Shown: positions 14,529 to 23,855 of the stretch, one piece after another | Position numbering within the stretch: position 1 is the first letter of the stretch | How the letters are laid out: each line of letters starts with the position of its first letter | Origin: Palleronia aestuarii | GTDB taxonomy: Bacteria > Pseudomonadota > Alphaproteobacteria > Rhodobacterales > Rhodobacteraceae | Reading direction: 5' to 3' | Length of the DNA stretch: 64,000 bases | Assembly (NCBI RefSeq): GCF_003253995.1 | Contig: NZ_QKZL01000016.1 | Location: 1-64,000, forward strand | Translations under genes and position numbers: made by a program | Notes under the pieces: generated by a model | Databases searched by the model: none | Seen by the model: the letters and a program-made list of their open reading frames with translations, nothing else | What the model was told of the DNA's origin: nothing

Positions 14529-14603
14529 TGGCAGCCCGTAGGGGAATCGAACCCCTCTTTCCAGGTTGAAAACCTGGCGTCCTAACCGATAGACGAACGG
14601 GCC
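14529..14603 (-). tRNA. tRNA-Glu (anticodon UUC)
   Basis: A complete cloverleaf reads on the minus strand. The acceptor GGCCCGT pairs with ACGGGCT (one G-U), the D-arm contains GTCTATCGGTTAGGAC, and the anticodon stem CCAGG/CCTGG encloses TTTTCAA with anticodon TTC. The T-arm is GAGGGGTTCGATTCCCCT. The 3' CCA is encoded. It lies between recJ and nikR. Confidence 0.97.
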
Positions 14604-14705: not shown

Positions 14706-15170
14706 TCAGAACCCGTCGCGGATCTTGTAATGCGCATGCGCATGCGGGGCGCCGCCGTGGGAATGCACGTCGCGCGTCGTCTCCACCGGGATGAGCGCGA
14801 GCCGTCCGTGTCGAACGCCGCGCTCCGAAAAGAGACCGTTGGCGAAATCCTCGACCCCCCCGAGCGCACCGCGCATCACGGTCACTTCCACGGCCACGTC
14901 GTGATCGATCGGAACGGAGATCGTCGCCACGGCCTGGTCGTGCCGGGCGTGACGGTTCTGCGGCACGCGGCGCGACAGATCGCGCGTCGAGAGTTCGAGC
15001 GCATAGCTCAGCACCCCGATGCATTCCGCGTCGTCCGGCGCATCGCGGCCGAGCGATCGCCGGATCAGCTCGCGCACGGCCTCCGACCGGTTGGTCGCCC
15101 CCGAGCGATCCATGTAGGCGTCGAGCTCGGCGAGGAGGTGATCCTCAATGGAGACCGTGATCCGCGGCAT
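14706..15170 (-). CDS. nikR: NikR-family ribbon-helix-helix regulator with altered metal site
   Basis: A 154-residue regulator with an N-terminal ribbon-helix-helix (MPRITVSIEDHLLAELDAYM, NRSEAVRELIRR) and a C-terminal ACT-like NikR domain (GVLSYALEL, FANGLFSERGVRHGRLALIP). Compared with the E. coli protein as I remember it, the high-affinity nickel ligands H87, H89 and C95 fall on Ser, Pro and Ala here (ATISVPIDHDVAVEV); only the H76 equivalent (RHARHD) remains. A C-terminal extension carries five His (DVHSHGGAPHAHAHYK). ATG at 15170 follows GGAAGGA. It is divergent from nikABCDE with a canonical NikR operator between them, so it almost certainly controls that operon, but its metal sensing may differ. 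Confidence 0.88.
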   Translation of the reverse strand: MPRITVSIEDHLLAELDAYMDRSGATNRSEAVRELIRRSLGRDAPDDAECIGVLSYALELSTRDLSRRVPQNRHARHDQAVATISVPIDHDVAVEVTVMRGALGGVEDFANGLFSERGVRHGRLALIPVETTRDVHSHGGAPHAHAHYKIRDGF

Positions 15171-15228: not shown

Positions 15229-15256
15229 TTTACCTTCCTTGCCGAGGGCGTATGAA
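15229..15256 (+). promoter_or_regulatory. Candidate nikA promoter overlapping the NikR operator
   Basis: TTTACC at 15229-15234 and TATGAA at 15251-15256 are spaced by 16 bp and match sigma-70 consensus at about four of six bases each. The -10 element overlaps the left half-site of the NikR operator, so a bound repressor would block polymerase. The assignment is by eye. Confidence 0.45.
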
Positions 15257-15277
15257 TTTCGCAGGCGATTTTCATAC
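15250..15277. promoter_or_regulatory. NikR operator
   Basis: GTATGA (15250-15255) and TCATAC (15272-15277) are a perfect dyad with exactly 16 bp between them, identical to the consensus GTATGA-N16-TCATAC described for E. coli NikR. It lies 10 bp before the nikA start codon and 80 bp before the divergent nikR start, so it could repress nikA directly and perhaps autoregulate nikR. Confidence 0.9.
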
Positions 15278-15287
15278 CGGAGGGAAG

Positions 15288-16853
15288 ATGACCAAGCTGA
15301 CGGCAGCCGTCCTCTGCGCGGCAGTTTTCCTTTCGGCCCCGCTCTCGGCCCGCCCGCTCGTCCTCGCCGTGGGGGGCGAGCCGGACGGCGGCTTCGATCC
15401 CCTGACGGGCTGGGGTCGTTACGGCAATCCGCTCTTTCAGTCGACACTTCTGAAGCGCGATGCCGATCTGACGCTCGAGGGCGATCTCGCAACGGATTGG
15501 GGGCTGTCGGAGGATGGCCTGATCTGGAGCGTGACGCTGCGCGAGGATGCGCGGTTCTCGGACGGGGCGCCGGTGACCGCGGAAGACGTGGCCTTCACCT
15601 TCAATACCGCCCGCGATGCCGGCGGGCTCGTCGATCTGCAGGATTTCGTCGCCGCCCGGGCCACCGGGCCATTCACGGTCGACCTGGAACTGAGCGCACC
15701 GCGCATCTCCTTCGCCAGCCGTCTAGCCACGCTCGGCATCGTGCCCGCGAAGAGCTACGGACCCGGCTACGCCCGCGAGCCGATCGGATCGGGACCGTTC
15801 CGCATGGTCGAGTGGCAGGAGGGCGCGCAGCTCGTGGTCGAACCGAACCCCTACTGGCACGGTGGCGAGGTGCCATTCGAGCGGGTGAGCTTCGTGTTCG
15901 GCAGCGAGGATGCGGGGCTCGCCCTGGCCCGGACCGGCGTGGCCGATGTCGTCGCCGTTCCCGCATCGCAGGCCGATGCGCCACCCGAGGGGATGCGGGC
16001 GCTGCATATCGAGACGGTCGACAATCGCGGCCTCATGTTCCCCATGCGTCCCGATACCGGAGAGCGGAGTGCGGGCGGCGCGCCGATCGGCAACGACGTG
16101 ACGGCGGATCGCGCGATCCGCGTGGCGGTGAATCAGGCCCTAGACCGCGACGCACTCGTCGCGCTCGCGCTCGGCGGGCACGGTCGTCCGGCAACAGGGC
16201 CCGCCGATGGCCTGCCCTGGGACAACCCGGATGCGGGGCTGGCCGGGAACGATCCCGATGCCGCCCGCGCGACGCTGGAGGCGGCGGGTTGGGTCGATGC
16301 GGATGGGGACGGGACACGCGAGAAGGACGGTCTCCCCGCACGGTTCGCCATCGTCTATCCGTCGAGCGACAGCACCCGCCAGGCCCTTGCACTCGGTGCG
16401 GCGCAGCAGCTGCGCGGCATCGGCATCACGGCCGAGCCCGCGGGACGGAGCTGGGACGAGATCGGCGCGATGATGCATTCGAACGTCGTCGTTTTCGGGT
16501 GGGGCGCCCATGATCCCTCGGAGGTCTACAATCTCTATCATGGCCGGTTCGCCGCCATCGACGACTTCAATCCAGGCTACTACGACAACCCCGCCGTGAA
16601 CGCGCATCTCGAGGCGGCGGAGAGCGCGAACGATTTCGCCGCCTCGTTGCCACACTGGCGCGCGGCCGCCTGGGACGGGGAAACCGGTTTCGGGCCGCGC
16701 GGCGACGCGGCATGGGCTTGGATGGTCAATCTCGAACATTCCTACTGGGTGTCGGAATGCCTCGACATGGGCCCCATGCAGATCCACCCGCACGGACACG
16801 GCTTTCCGATCACCCACGATCTGCCCGGGTGGCGGTGGACCTGCGCAGAATGA
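15288..16853 (+). CDS. nikA: Nickel ABC transporter substrate-binding protein
   Basis: Periplasmic binding protein of the peptide/nickel family, 521 residues. An N-terminal signal peptide (MTKLTAAVLCAAVFLSAPLS) is followed by LVLAVGGEPDGGFDPLTGWG and NPLFQSTLLKRD, typical of NikA-type proteins rather than general oligopeptide binders. VTAEDVAFTFNTARD is a family-5 SBP signature. The ATG at 15288 has GGAGGGAAG ahead of it. First gene of nikABCDE; its stop overlaps the nikB start. The nickel assignment rests on the sequence character plus the NikR site immediately upstream; a nickel-chelate or cobalt ligand is possible. Confidence 0.88.
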   Translation: MTKLTAAVLCAAVFLSAPLSARPLVLAVGGEPDGGFDPLTGWGRYGNPLFQSTLLKRDADLTLEGDLATDWGLSEDGLIWSVTLREDARFSDGAPVTAEDVAFTFNTARDAGGLVDLQDFVAARATGPFTVDLELSAPRISFASRLATLGIVPAKSYGPGYAREPIGSGPFRMVEWQEGAQLVVEPNPYWHGGEVPFERVSFVFGSEDAGLALARTGVADVVAVPASQADAPPEGMRALHIETVDNRGLMFPMRPDTGERSAGGAPIGNDVTADRAIRVAVNQALDRDALVALALGGHGRPATGPADGLPWDNPDAGLAGNDPDAARATLEAAGWVDADGDGTREKDGLPARFAIVYPSSDSTRQALALGAAQQLRGIGITAEPAGRSWDEIGAMMHSNVVVFGWGAHDPSEVYNLYHGRFAAIDDFNPGYYDNPAVNAHLEAAESANDFAASLPHWRAAAWDGETGFGPRGDAAWAWMVNLEHSYWVSECLDMGPMQIHPHGHGFPITHDLPGWRWTCAE

Positions 16854-17833
16854 ACTGGCTCCGCCCGCTCCTTCTCGGGCGTCTTCTGAGGCTCGCCTGG
16901 CTGCTGCCGCTGGCGACGATCGGTCTTTTCACCCTCGTCTCGCTCGCCCCGATCGATCCCGTGCAGGCCTATATCGGCGATCTCAGCGCGCTCGTCGGCC
17001 CGGAACAGCGCGCGGCCATCGCCGCGACATGGGGTCTCGACCAGCCGGCGCCGGAGCGGTTCCTTTCCTGGCTCGGCGGGGCGATGACGGGGGATCTCGG
17101 GCGCTCCCTGACTTACGGCGTTCCGGTCGCGGAAGTGATCGAACGGCGCCTGCCCGCCTCGCTCGCGCTGATCGGTATCGCCTTCGTCCTCTCCTTCGTC
17201 CTCGGCACGGCACTCGGCATCGCCGCAGCGGCTTCCCGCGGCGGCAGGGTGGACCGCTTGATCCGCTTCGTGGCGGTGACGCTTTCCGTTAGCCCGGGCT
17301 TCTGGATCGCGCTGCTCCTGATCGCGGTCTTCGCCGTGGGCCTGGGCTGGCTTCCCGCCTGCTGTGCCGCGCCACCCGGGCTCACGGCAGCGGAGACGGG
17401 GATGGGCGACCGGCTTCGCCACCTCGTCCTTCCGGTGGCAACCCTGTCGCTCGTCGGGACGGCGCCGCTCGTCTTGCATACCCGGCAGAGGCTATTGGGA
17501 TTTCTCGAAAGCCCCGCGGCACTGCACTTGCGGGCGCATGGGCTATCCTGGCGGCGCGTCGCCTTCGGCGCAGGATTGCGCCACGCGTTGGGCCCGGCGC
17601 TGGCGCTTCACCTCGCGGGTGCCGGCGAGCTCTTCGGCGGATCGGTGCTGGCCGAGACGATCTTCGCTTGGCCCGGTCTCGGTCAGGCGACGGTTCGGGC
17701 GGCCACGGGAGCGGATGCGCCGCTCCTCATGGGGATCGGTCTCGCAACACTGCTTTTCGTGTTCTGCGGCAACCTGCTCGCCGACGTCGCGGCGCAACTC
17801 GTCGATCCGCGCCTCCGCCGGACGACCGCATGA
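16850..17833 (+). CDS. nikB: Nickel ABC transporter permease NikB
   Basis: Inner-membrane permease of about 327 residues in the DppB/NikB family. The N-terminal transmembrane helix (LAWLLPLATIGLFTLVSLAP) is followed by a periplasmic loop with RFLSWLGGAMTGDLGRSLTY, a strong family motif, then five more helices and the coupling EAA-like segment. The end shows DPRLRRT. It starts with ATG overlapping the nikA stop (ATGA). Together with NikC it forms the transport channel. Confidence 0.87.
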   Translation: MNWLRPLLLGRLLRLAWLLPLATIGLFTLVSLAPIDPVQAYIGDLSALVGPEQRAAIAATWGLDQPAPERFLSWLGGAMTGDLGRSLTYGVPVAEVIERRLPASLALIGIAFVLSFVLGTALGIAAAASRGGRVDRLIRFVAVTLSVSPGFWIALLLIAVFAVGLGWLPACCAAPPGLTAAETGMGDRLRHLVLPVATLSLVGTAPLVLHTRQRLLGFLESPAALHLRAHGLSWRRVAFGAGLRHALGPALALHLAGAGELFGGSVLAETIFAWPGLGQATVRAATGADAPLLMGIGLATLLFVFCGNLLADVAAQLVDPRLRRTTA

Positions 17834-18681
17834 CGGCGCTCGATATTTCGGCGGACGGAGAGGGAACCGTTCGAGGGATCCGACCCCCGCTCCATCGCGG
17901 GCTCTGGGCCGCATGCCTCCTCATCCTGGTCCTCGGAGGGTCCGCGCTCCTGCCCGCAAACCTTCTGGAGATCGACGCAAGCGCGATCGGCCGTGCGCCG
18001 GATCCGGGTCATCCCTTCGGCACGGACAGTCTCGGGCGCGACGTCGCCGCGCGGACGCTCGCGGCCCTCGCGATGAGCGTGAAGGTCGGACTGGTCGCGG
18101 CGACGGCCTCGACGGGGATCGCGCTCCTGCTCTCGCTCGCCGCGGCTTCAAACCGGGTGGCGGATCAGGCGGTGGGCGTCCTGACGGAACTCGCGTTGGG
18201 CCTTCCGCATTTCGTGCTCCTCATCATGATCGCCTATGCCATGGGCGGAGGGACGAACGGCGTCGTGGTCGCGATCGCGTTCACTCATTGGCCGCGTCTC
18301 GCCCGGCTTCTCCGCCACGAGGCGCAGGGCGTTGCTGCGTCCGACTACGTCGCGGCCTCGCAGGCGCTTGGACGACCGGCGCACTGGATTGCCCGCCACC
18401 ACATGGCGCCGCATCTCGCACCGCACCTCATCGCGGGCTTCGTTCTGATTTTTCCCCACGCAATCCTGCACGAGGCGGGGCTGAGTTTCATCGGCCTCGG
18501 GATCGAGCCGCACTTGCCGTCGATCGGCGTGATGCTGGCCGAGTCGCTGCGCGAGATCATCGCCGGACGATGGTGGGTGGCCGTAGCGCCCGGGGCTGGG
18601 CTCCTCCTCGTGGCGCTCGCCTTCGAGAGGTTCGGCGAAGCGTTGCGCGTGGCCGCGGAACCGCCCGGAGGCGCATCGTGA
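17830..18681 (+). CDS. nikC: Nickel ABC transporter permease NikC
   Basis: Second permease, 283 residues, DppC/NikC family. The conserved PFGTDSLGRDVAARTLAALAMS motif (shown in two parts: PFGTDSLGRDV, then AARTLAALAMS) precedes the helices. The EAA loop appears in ASDYVAASQALGRPAHWIAR, and LHEAGLSFIGLGIEPHLPSI is characteristic. ATG at 17830 overlaps the nikB stop. It heterodimerises with NikB. Confidence 0.87.
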   Translation: MTALDISADGEGTVRGIRPPLHRGLWAACLLILVLGGSALLPANLLEIDASAIGRAPDPGHPFGTDSLGRDVAARTLAALAMSVKVGLVAATASTGIALLLSLAAASNRVADQAVGVLTELALGLPHFVLLIMIAYAMGGGTNGVVVAIAFTHWPRLARLLRHEAQGVAASDYVAASQALGRPAHWIARHHMAPHLAPHLIAGFVLIFPHAILHEAGLSFIGLGIEPHLPSIGVMLAESLREIIAGRWWVAVAPGAGLLLVALAFERFGEALRVAAEPPGGAS

Positions 18682-19403
18682 GCCTGCGGGTCGAAAGTCT
18701 GGGGCTGGTCTTGCCGCGGGCCGATCGCCAGCCGGTCCGTCTTCTCGACGGTATCTCCTTCACGCTTGGCCGTGGCGAGATCCTGGGCATCGCGGGACGG
18801 TCGGGCGCAGGCAAGAGCCTCGTGGCCGCCGCCCTCGCGGGCATACTGCCTGCCGGTGCGAGGCGCGCGGGACGGATCACCGTGGACGGCCAGGCGCCAC
18901 GGCCACGCGACATCGCGCTCGCACCCCAGAGGCTCGACGCGCTCGATCCCCTCGCGCCGATCGGTCGCCAACTCCGCCGCCTCGCCCGCGGTCGGCGTGA
19001 TCCCGGAGGTTTCCTCGACCATGTCGGTCTGTCCCGGAACGTCGCGAGACTCTATCCGCACATGCTCTCGGGCGGCATGGCGCGCCGTGCGCTCCTTGCC
19101 ACGTCGCTCGCAAGCGGTGCGGATTGGATCGTCGCCGACGAGCCGACCGTCGGACTCGATCCGGACGCGGCCGATCATGTCATGTCGCTCCTGGGCCGCC
19201 TCGCGCAGGATGGACGCGGGTTCGTCGTCGTGAGCCACGACCTGACCCGTCTTACGCGTATTTCGGATCGGGTGCTGATCCTCGAGAATGGCCATCCGGT
19301 GGAGATCGCGCCGGCCGACGCCTTCACCGGTGACGGGACCGCGCTCTCGACGGTCTTCTCGCGGACCCTGTGGCGCGCCCAGCTTCCCGATACGGTATGC
19401 TGA
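18678..19403 (+). CDS. nikD: Nickel ABC transporter ATPase NikD
   Basis: Cytoplasmic ATPase of 241 residues. Walker A is GRSGAGKSL (usual Ser/Thr after Lys present, then Leu), signature LSGGMARRALLAT, Walker B WIVADEPTVGLDP, and the switch His is in VVVSHDLTRL. GTG at 18678 overlaps the nikC stop (GTGA). It is shorter at the C-terminus than oligopeptide DppD, as is usual for NikD. It pairs with NikE. Confidence 0.86.
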   Translation: MSLRVESLGLVLPRADRQPVRLLDGISFTLGRGEILGIAGRSGAGKSLVAAALAGILPAGARRAGRITVDGQAPRPRDIALAPQRLDALDPLAPIGRQLRRLARGRRDPGGFLDHVGLSRNVARLYPHMLSGGMARRALLATSLASGADWIVADEPTVGLDPDAADHVMSLLGRLAQDGRGFVVVSHDLTRLTRISDRVLILENGHPVEIAPADAFTGDGTALSTVFSRTLWRAQLPDTVC

Positions 19404-20029
19404 GCGCCGAACGGATCGGTCATGCCTTCGGGGGCAGTCCCGTCCTTTCCGAAGCAAGCCTCGCGCTCGGCGCGGGAGAGATCGTCGGGCTTGGCGGAAT
19501 GTCGGGCAGCGGGAAGAGCACGCTCGGACGCATCCTCGGCGGACATCTCGTGCCGCAATCCGGTCGAGTCCGGCTCGACGGCGCCCCTCTTCCGCCGCCC
19601 GGGGTCGGGCGTCCCGCACCCGTGCAATACGCGCCCCAGGCCGCGGAACTCGCGGTCGATCCGCGCTGGCGGATCGGGCGCATTCTTGCCAATGGCGGCA
19701 CGCCGGACCCGGAGGCGATCGCGGCCCTCGGCGTGGCGCCCGCCTGGACGGATCGGCATCCGTCGGAACTCTCTGGCGGTGAGCTTGCCCGGGTATCGCT
19801 CGCCCGGTTCTTCCATCCCGGGCTGCGCGCGCTCGTCTGCGACGAGATCACCGCGCAACTCGATGCGCTCGAGCAGGCAGCCCTGCTCGAGCGGCTGACA
19901 GGGGTGGCCCGCCGGCGGGGTCTGGCTCTCCTCCTCGTTAGCCACAGTGCAGGATTGCGGGCGCGATATTGCGACCGCTCGCTCATCCTTACGGAGGGTC
20001 GGCTCGTTCCGGAGGCGATGCCGCGTTGA
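19397..20029 (+). CDS. nikE: Nickel ABC transporter ATPase NikE
   Basis: Second ATPase, 210 residues. Walker [10 protein letters not shown], signature [15 protein letters not shown], Walker [13 protein letters not shown], and the switch His in LLVSHSAGL. It is compact compared with NikE of enterobacteria (about 260), lacking a C-terminal extension. ATG at 19397 overlaps the end of nikD. Last gene of the nik operon; 149 bp follow before the alcohol dehydrogenase gene on the same strand. Confidence 0.85.
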
Positions 20030-22041: not shown

Positions 22042-22195
22042 TCGGACGAAGCTGCCTCTCGGCGGCTCCGGCCGGCCGTGAAGATGTCCGCAGTCCCCGG
22101 CCTCGCCCCGGTCTGTCCCCCATGAATCTCGACAGCGCATCCATAACGGCGGAACCCGTCCGACCGACGTGTTCTCTCGTCCTGCGGACCGCTCC

Positions 22196-23035
22196 ATGAG
22201 TGGGTCGACATCTCTTTTCGCGGAGCCGCAGGTTCTGGCCCTGATGGCGCTTGGCCTGATCGTGGCCGGTGCGGCGATCGGGCTTCTTGCCGGGCTTTTC
22301 GGCGTCGGCGGGGGCGCGATCAGCGTTCCGGTCTTCTACCAGACGTTTCTCCTCATGGGGACACGGCCCGACATTGCCATGCCCCTCGCCGTGGGCACGT
22401 CGCTCGCGATGATCATTCCGACCTCGATCCTGTCCGCCCGGACCCATGCGGAATCGGGTGCGCTCGACATTCCGCATCTGCGCGCCTGGGCCGTGCCGGT
22501 CACCTGCGGCGTCCTTATCGGAAGCGCCGCGGCCCGCTACGCGCCCGCCGAACTCTTCCAGATCGTCTTCGTGGTGGTGGCGGGAACGAATGCCGTGAAG
22601 ATGCTCTTCGCGCGGGGTGCGTGGCAGCTTCGCGACGGGCTGCCCGGCAATCCGCTCCAAGCCGTTTATGGCGCGATCGTGGGTCTGCTGTCGGCGTTGA
22701 TGGGGATCGGCGGCGGGGCGATCTCGAACCTGATCCTCACGCTCCATGGCTGGAGCATGCATCGCGCGGTCGCGACCTCCGCTGGCGTCGGGGTGCTCAT
22801 CGCGATCCCGGGGACGATCGGCTACGTTCTCGCAGGATGGGGCAAGGCCGGCCTGCCGCACGATGCCTTTGGGTTCGTCTCCGTCGGTGCGCTGGTCCTG
22901 ACGATGCCCACCGCGATCCTGACGACGCGGCGTGGCGCGCGGCTGGCGCATCGCCTGTCGCGCGAGGTTTTGCAGCGCCTCTTCGGCCTCTTCCTGCTCG
23001 CCGTCACGATCCGCTTCCTCGTCGCACTGTTCTGA
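22196..23035 (+). CDS. TauE/SafE-family membrane permease
   Basis: Integral membrane protein of about 279 residues with eight or so hydrophobic helices, belonging to the sulfite/sulfoacetate exporter TauE/SafE (DUF81) family. The characteristic repeated motif appears twice: LLAGLFGVGGGAISVPV near the N-terminus and ALMGIGGGAISNLIL in the second half. ATG at 22196 is taken, although a GTG 27 bp upstream is also possible; neither has a strong ribosome-binding site. Substrate unknown, likely a small anion. Divergent from the HxlR gene, which may regulate it. Its stop is 4 bp from that of the convergent fdhD. Confidence 0.82.
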   Translation: MSGSTSLFAEPQVLALMALGLIVAGAAIGLLAGLFGVGGGAISVPVFYQTFLLMGTRPDIAMPLAVGTSLAMIIPTSILSARTHAESGALDIPHLRAWAVPVTCGVLIGSAAARYAPAELFQIVFVVVAGTNAVKMLFARGAWQLRDGLPGNPLQAVYGAIVGLLSALMGIGGGAISNLILTLHGWSMHRAVATSAGVGVLIAIPGTIGYVLAGWGKAGLPHDAFGFVSVGALVLTMPTAILTTRRGARLAHRLSREVLQRLFGLFLLAVTIRFLVALF

Positions 23036-23039
23036 GGGA

Positions 23040-23855
23040 TCAGGGCCGGTCGACGGGTTCCGACACGATGCGGCAGGGATCTGCGAAAAGCTCGAAACGC
23101 CCCTCCCGCGCCGATCCGGCGAGCGCGATCCCCGATGCCTCGGCGAGGCGAACCGCCTGAACGGTTGGTGCGGAGACGGCAACGAGGAGCGGCACCCGCG
23201 CCATCGCGCATTTCTGCACCAGCTCTATCGAGACCCGGCTCGTCATGACGATCGCGCCCCGTCTGCCGTCGATCCCTTCCCGCGCCAGTGCGCCGACGAG
23301 CTTGTCGAGGGCATTGTGCCGCCCGACATCCTCGCGTGCCATGACGATCGTGCCTTCCGGCCCGAGAAAGCCCGCCGCATGGACCGCGCCGGTCCGGTCA
23401 TGGAGGGATTGGTGCTGGCGCAGCGCGTCGGGCGCCCGTGCGAGCGTCGCCGCGTCGAACCGGCAATCGGCTTTAGGAAGGGTCGGCACAGAGCGCTGCG
23501 CTTCCTCGAGACTGTCGATCCCGCAGAGACCGCATCCGACCGGGCCGGCCATGTAGCGCCGACGCGCCGCAAGTCGCGCGGCCCTCTCCCCGGCAATCCA
23601 CATGCGAAGCTCGATCCCCTTCTCATGCGCGGCGATCTCCAGGCTTTCGATCTCTCCACCATGTGCGACGATGCCTTCGGTCAGGCTGAACCCCGTCGCG
23701 AGGTCCTCGAGATCCGATGGGGTCGACATGAGCACGGCCTGCGTCGTCTGCTGATAGACGAGGGCAATGGCCACTTCTTCCGCGAGATGGCGCGCAAGCC
23801 GCGTGGCATGACCGTCGCGGATCGCGAGGCCGTTCATCTTGCGCGACGTCGTCAA
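23040..23855 (-). CDS. fdhD: Formate dehydrogenase accessory sulfurtransferase FdhD
   Basis: Transfers sulfur from IscS to the molybdenum cofactor for formate dehydrogenase activation. It is 271 residues. The essential CxxC is present as C108-G-L-C111 in GPVGCGLCGID, and the family segments TGFSLTEGIV, HDRTGAVHAAGF, REDVGRHNALDKLVG and VMTSRVSIELVQK are all visible. No formate dehydrogenase structural gene or molybdenum cofactor gene is in the window, so its client is encoded elsewhere. Confidence 0.93.
   Translation of the reverse strand: MTTSRKMNGLAIRDGHATRLARHLAEEVAIALVYQQTTQAVLMSTPSDLEDLATGFSLTEGIVAHGGEIESLEIAAHEKGIELRMWIAGERAARLAARRRYMAGPVGCGLCGIDSLEEAQRSVPTLPKADCRFDAATLARAPDALRQHQSLHDRTGAVHAAGFLGPEGTIVMAREDVGRHNALDKLVGALAREGIDGRRGAIVMTSRVSIELVQKCAMARVPLLVAVSAPTVQAVRLAEASGIALAGSAREGRFELFADPCRIVSEPVDRP

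Follow-up and report, generated by a model that had tools for sequence, protein, structure and literature searches.

The NikR protein encoded in the analysed DNA of Palleronia aestuarii (the window, a single stretch of 64,000 nucleotides) is placed in its family by ancestry, fold, operator and neighbouring genes but lacks the feature for which the family is best known, the His3Cys site. It belongs to a clade of alphaproteobacterial proteins that, judging from the alignment, have lost the classical ligands and a large part of the surrounding second shell as a block. The derived event is this loss together with the fixing of a C-terminal tail motif. The reading favoured here, held with modest confidence, is that of a repressor of nickel uptake whose classical site has been dismantled throughout the clade and whose metal signal would now be read by a C-terminal hairpin of four His residues. 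NikR is a model metal sensor, and a clade that lacks the classical site and yet has the operator and importer targets at most loci makes it possible to ask directly how a metalloregulator may acquire a different sensing site and still control the same output. It also bears on what the classical site of NikR is needed for.

Loss of the classical site in the window protein and its clade

The gene and the residues discussed below are placed as follows in the window:

14706-15170, minus strand: nikR variant, 154 amino acids and stop, with an RHH DNA-binding domain, an ACT-type NikR_C domain and a C-terminal His tail
14952-14954, minus strand: R73, clade-specific invariant Arg, Q75 in E. coli, adjoining the lost H76 position
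14949-14951, minus strand: H74, the E. coli H76 position, His in the window protein and variable across the clade
14910-14918, minus strand: S85-V86-P87, the E. coli H87 and H89 ligand positions
14892-14894, minus strand: A93, the E. coli C95 ligand position
14709-14786, minus strand: C-terminal tail, residues 129-154, H136xH138-loop-H145xH147-x6-F154

Profile searches with Pfam find both domains of a NikR, RHH_1 (28.6 bits, cut-off 20.5) and NikR_C (60.3 bits, cut-off 22). The two NCBIfam models for NikR disagree, as NF002815 is above its cut-off (135.3 bits, cut-off 83) and TIGR02793 below (124.6 bits, cut-off 175.45). It is the one NikR match in the 4.54 Mb genome. The best Foldseek matches of its structural model are NikR structures, and the nickel-bound regulatory domain 1q5y_B superimposes at an rmsd of 1.1. 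In the phmmer alignment with E. coli NikR (1q5v), residues 1-130 align with an E-value of 2.6e-29 and residues 51-130 have no gaps, which rules out that the ligands are simply misaligned. E. coli H76, H87, H89 and C95 correspond to H74, S85, P87 and A93, and the window protein therefore has no His3Cys site. This confirms the first-pass annotation, made from the sequence alone, in which H87, H89 and C95 were read as Ser, Pro and Ala. None of the three substituted positions is occupied by a different His or Cys, and the alignment half of the check that the annotation had set against itself therefore leaves the claim standing.

Relatives were collected from 10 of 248 genomes in one sample of the same family and 20 of 394 in another, from 17 of 385 genomes with a match in a sample of the class, from the order of Ancylobacter (115 matches in 112 of 397 genomes), from plasmids (55 records, 4 fetched) and from the best 80 loci listed in a scan of species genomes. 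The clade is defined by Ser in place of H87 and Pro in place of H89, a pair present in 52 distinct alphaproteobacterial proteins and in none of 89 other distinct NikR proteins. Identical copies were removed before counting, which took the clade from 60 rows to 52 and the others from 90 to 89, and L053 and L110 were left out. All four classical ligands are present in 83 of the 89, referred to here as canonical. The Ser-Pro type accounts for 16 of the 20 NikR-bearing genomes in the family sample of 394 and for 26 of the 30 matches read in the order of Ancylobacter, the other 4 being canonical. The unread matches of that order all score at most 142.6 bits, and the weakest clade member read anywhere scores 205.1; scores with the clade model leave a gap between clade members (at least 205 bits) and others (at most 156). 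Of the 17 matching genomes in the class sample, none but the window genome yielded a clade member; 16 of these proteins were read, the exception being L110, a weak match.

The clade has a median pairwise identity of 51% and a minimum of 37%, and it holds together in phylogenetic analysis. One branch splits off the Ser-Pro proteins with a support of 100/100 in a tree of 23 rows built on the first 135 residues, from which L003 and L008 (duplicates), L053 (running off its contig) and L108 and L109 (very divergent) were left out. The branch has an SH-aLRT support of 100 when the tail is removed along with the four ligand columns (48 rows), and 100/100 when nine ligand and second-shell columns are taken out (41 rows, LG+G4). 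Both of these trees additionally omit most non-proteobacterial rows, the former also identical rows and the latter rows of more than 90% identity and L106. The alignment and phylogeny that had been suggested as a check thus give 52 distinct proteins with the same substitutions in one clade. Fixation in so many distinct proteins means that the substitutions are not due to chance, and because the reading frames are open in all of them decay to a pseudogene is also ruled out.

Some departures from the classical ligands were seen outside the clade. The four positions read HQQR in Roseicella frigidaeris (L046), HRHL in a plasmid protein of Paraburkholderia acidisoli (L013) and HQHC in two Marinobacter proteins (L055 and L059), all with His-rich tails. 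Two very divergent NikR-like proteins of the same class, L108 and L109, have RQPY and RHHT and are without a His-rich tail.

Within the clade the H87 and H89 positions are Ser and Pro in 52/52 (His in 83/83 canonical proteins), and the C95 position holds Ala in 25, Ser in 22, Thr in 4 and Met in 1. The first-pass annotation regarded the H76 equivalent as retained. This is true of H74 in the window protein but not of the clade, where the position holds Leu in 28, His in 15, Gln in 8 and Met in 1, and all four classical positions have therefore been released. The surroundings of the site have changed as well. H62, present in all 83 canonical proteins, is found in 5 of the 52, and Tyr at position 60 in none (73/83 canonical). 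Position 116, Ile in E. coli, is Phe in 51/52 against 0/83. Position 75 is Arg in every clade protein and in no canonical one, Gln being found in 52 of the 83, and E. coli position 97 (window 95) is always an acid in the clade (Glu 31, Asp 21). R3, T5 and E30 are kept. According to one paper, conservation of the His3Cys sites extends across NikR homologs (PMC9860126). In the literature searched, largely outside subscription journals, no description of a NikR group without this site was found.

These changes suggest that a fixed arrangement of R73, S85, P87 and the acid at 95, which needs no metal, has taken the place of the His3Cys site between the subunits of the tetramer, and that within it R73 and E/D95 might form a salt bridge in the old site and so hold the interface formerly held by nickel. 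The same invariant Arg, right beside the lost H76 position, and the invariant acid also suit a repressor that is independent of metal or answers a non-metal signal, with R73 mimicking the charge of the metal and the tail acting as a nickel store or delivery arm. This is the least probable of the readings considered. Four invariant His residues, fixed in their spacing over 52 proteins, exceed the apparent need of a store. Furthermore, the clade protein is the sole NikR match (E <= 1e-10) in 42/42 clade genomes of the Ancylobacter-order and family samples, as scored on limited candidates per genome, a procedure that might overlook a further NikR of strongly diverged sequence. Only Roseomonas marmotae, outside these 42, was seen to depart from this. 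Metal independence would therefore leave nickel uptake in these genomes without nickel control of the NikR type.

Operator, importer genes and the identity of the metal

Upstream of nikR and on the opposite strand are an operator and five importer-like genes:

15250-15277, plus strand: NikR operator GTATGA-N16-TCATAC, 12/12
15288-16853, plus strand: nikA-like solute-binding protein (SBP_bac_5), by Pfam/NCBIfam
16850-17833, plus strand: nikB-like permease
17830-18681, plus strand: nikC-like permease (start placed at the ATG in the translation; search run with 17818-18681)
18678-19403, plus strand: nikD-like ATPase
19397-20029, plus strand: nikE-like ATPase (start placed at an ATG by eye; search run with 19370-20029)

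GTATGA-N16-TCATAC is the known operator consensus of E. coli NikR. The perfect site ends ten bases before the nikA ATG, as expected from the earlier description of a canonical operator at this position, and it is the only site in the window with fewer than three mismatches and the only one in the 4.54 Mb genome with fewer than two. A chance operator is ruled out, since the other 12 sites in the genome all have two mismatches, a level that 8 sites reach when the pattern is reversed as a control. Among the clade loci, 35 of 52 have an operator of at least 10/12 in the 350 bp preceding nikR, 27 with a perfect 12/12, and 17 fall below, compared with 4 of 20 non-clade loci that reach 10/12. The first-pass annotation spoke of rewired metal sensing with conserved DNA recognition, and this agrees well with the loss of the old site, the four invariant His of the tail and the retention of R3, T5, E30 and, at these 35 loci, the operator. 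The window protein most likely still works as a repressor of nickel import, as far as can be judged from sequence.

Importer genes of the NikABCDE or NikKMLQO type adjoin 38 of the 52 clade loci: 14 have the NikA type and 24 the DUF4198/NikK-CbiM type (NikKMLQO). Other ABC or ECF parts adjoin 7. Beside L017, CbiM with a PDGLE domain, CbiQ and a CbiO-like ATPase were found. No importer gene was recognised at the remaining 7, of which 5 are only 2-3.5 kb long and two (L023 and L063) 14 kb.

Three further observations concern the surroundings in the window. A tRNA-Glu (ttc) lies directly downstream of nikR (14529-14603, minus strand). Genes for a TauE-type transporter and FdhD, a formate dehydrogenase accessory protein, are adjacent at 22169-23855, the nickel operon being some 2-3 kb away. 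A His cluster near the C-terminus of the nikA-like protein (16776-16817, IHPHGHGFPITH) possibly provides metal ligands of its own.

In a less likely reading the tail would sense cobalt, zinc or copper, with transporters that carry the same metal or are tuned by it, and motifs of the form HxH...HxH are not specific to nickel. The nikABCDE-like proteins of the window match nickel-transporter models, each below the NCBIfam nickel cut-off, and NikA is far below it (82.6 against 393). One study describes NikK and NikL as nickel-related components, and five proteobacteria have a NikKMLQO system that is there predicted to transport cobalt (PMC2667541). A cobalamin riboswitch is present in the Rhodovulum kholense locus (L019, 7888-8099, minus strand), about 400 bases beyond nikR and pointing towards it. 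Against this, the same operator precedes importers of two kinds that are unrelated to each other and are both, as a rule, of the nickel class. No cobalamin riboswitch reached the gathering score in the window, in nine other loci or in L015, L016, L017 and L025, and the clade gene of Roseomonas marmotae (L011) lies between NikKMLQO-type genes and a urease cluster. A sensor of another metal is thus considered distinctly unlikely, and nickel is kept as the probable signal of the tail. A different riboswitch, for xanthine (NMT1, 40.8 bits), was found in the Aquimixticola soesokkakensis locus (L026, 1600-1647).

Nickel enzymes were also searched for. The window genome has a urease alpha match, and urease was found in 21 of 22 clade genomes. 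Urease does not discriminate, because the family background is nearly as high (119 of 149 genomes over the cut-off). Matches to [NiFe]-hydrogenase families were found in 8 of 17 genomes searched, one of the 8 being the non-clade genome of L028, and none in the window genome.

The C-terminal tail as a candidate sensing site

The tail of the window protein has five His residues past E. coli residue 130. The earlier statement that a His-rich tail is present was correct, but to call it gained is misleading, because canonical NikR proteins often have such tails too. Of the 89 non-clade proteins, 54 carry three or more His in this region and 40 carry HxH...HxH. The gain of a tail is thus probably not special to the window protein. 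The complete motif, HxH-loop-HxH-x6-F, is far more restricted. H136, H138, H145, H147 and F154 are invariant in all 52 clade proteins, and only 3 of the 89 others, all with canonical ligands, have the same form (L010, L028 and L150). The spacing of six residues between H147 and F154 is constant in 52/52 and the loop between H138 and H145 varies from 5 to 11. At most other positions of the tail the commonest residue reaches only 19-60% in the clade; the exceptions are 129 (79%), 143 and 148 (65%) and 150 (85%). The four His residues are encoded by CAT and CAC in mixed proportions (29/23, 28/24, 16/36 and 32/20), indicating that silent changes have accumulated without change of the amino acid.

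An AlphaFold prediction of the window protein (monomer, no metal, alignment of 40 rows) has strands at 119-136 and 143-150 and a tail pLDDT of 83-88. The control L035, with canonical ligands and a His tail (32 rows without the clade), has a pLDDT of 63-66 in the last 17 residues. It is also given two short tail strands, 139-143 and 152-156, at lower confidence, and a tail hairpin is therefore not unique to the clade. With residue 136 opposite 143, H136, H145 and H147 should face one side with H138 in the turn, a geometry taken from the strand register of the prediction.

Four frozen His residues in an otherwise loose tail are best explained by the tail being the new sensor, and of the three options in the first-pass annotation (nickel bound through the tail, response to another metal, or independence of metal) the first appears best supported, by conservation. 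His tails in canonical NikR need not be the sensor, and for this reason the tail may be auxiliary. Nickel could then be sensed in the core, at a new or previously secondary site formed by H77, H90, H121 or C50 or at the interdomain site of E30 and D34, the tail only helping to collect metal. H77, H90, H121 and C50 are invariant in 52/52. E30 is also invariant, and Asp is found at position 34 in 50/52 (Glu in the window protein); in the accessible part of a review, E. coli NikR is described as having a second, low-affinity site and as binding K+ by Glu30 and Asp34 (PMC7055735). However, H77, H90 and H121 are also frequent in canonical NikR (76, 69 and 68 of 83) and Cys is found at the C50 column in many canonical rows, so that these residues are not specific to the clade, which the complete tail motif (52/52 against 3/89) is. 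Sensing in the core is accordingly regarded as unlikely.

In the favoured reading, with the sensor in the tail, a repressor of the NikR family would bind GTATGA-N16-TCATAC before nikA and regulate the nickel-uptake operon. The C-terminal beta-hairpin with H136, H138, H145 and H147, perhaps joined by the conserved core residues H77, H90 and H121, would read the metal signal, for which Ni(II) is the most likely candidate. Metal bound at the tail might make the edge of the ACT sheet more rigid and in this way favour the DNA-binding conformation.

The three non-clade proteins with the complete motif may represent two-site intermediates, to go by their sequences. Like the clade they have the HxH...HxH...F C-terminus, but all four classical ligands are kept and position 75 is His, not Arg. 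In L010 and L028 the operator is absent within 350 bp. The three proteins are sister to the clade in one of three trees, that of 41 rows with nine columns removed, with a support of 76/31. L010 and L028 fall elsewhere when the ligand columns are kept (23 rows), and all three do so when only the four ligand columns are removed (48 rows). A history in which the tail came first is therefore compatible with the trees, no more. It is proposed tentatively, and with less confidence than the sensing role of the tail itself, that nickel sensing moved to the four-His hairpin by way of two-site intermediates, some of them surviving as L010, L028 and L150, with a fixed Arg-acid pair holding the empty site and DNA recognition preserved to the letter.

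Comparison with known NikR proteins

The window protein shares the two-domain fold with E. coli NikR (1q5v, 2hza and 3od2), with 41% identity to 2hza_A in Foldseek. R3, T5 and E30 are common to both, and both genes adjoin a nikABCDE-like operon. It differs from E. coli NikR in that three of the four His3Cys ligands are absent, with all four unconserved in the clade, in its changed second shell and in about 20 extra C-terminal residues with five His. Helicobacter pylori NikR (2cad and 6mrj) has the same fold with 27-28% identity (Foldseek). Unlike the window protein it has kept the His3Cys site, and it is described as extended at the N-terminus and as having longer linkers (PMC9860126).

A further comparison is offered by Roseomonas marmotae, where the protein encoded beside the urease cluster on plasmid p1318-3 (WP_336512714.1, L011) belongs to the same clade as the window protein. 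Unlike the 42 clade genomes with one NikR, R. marmotae has a second, canonical NikR (L014) beside nikABC genes. Despite its place in the clade, L011 is annotated as 'nickel-responsive transcriptional regulator NikR', a warning that this annotation does not imply the classical site.
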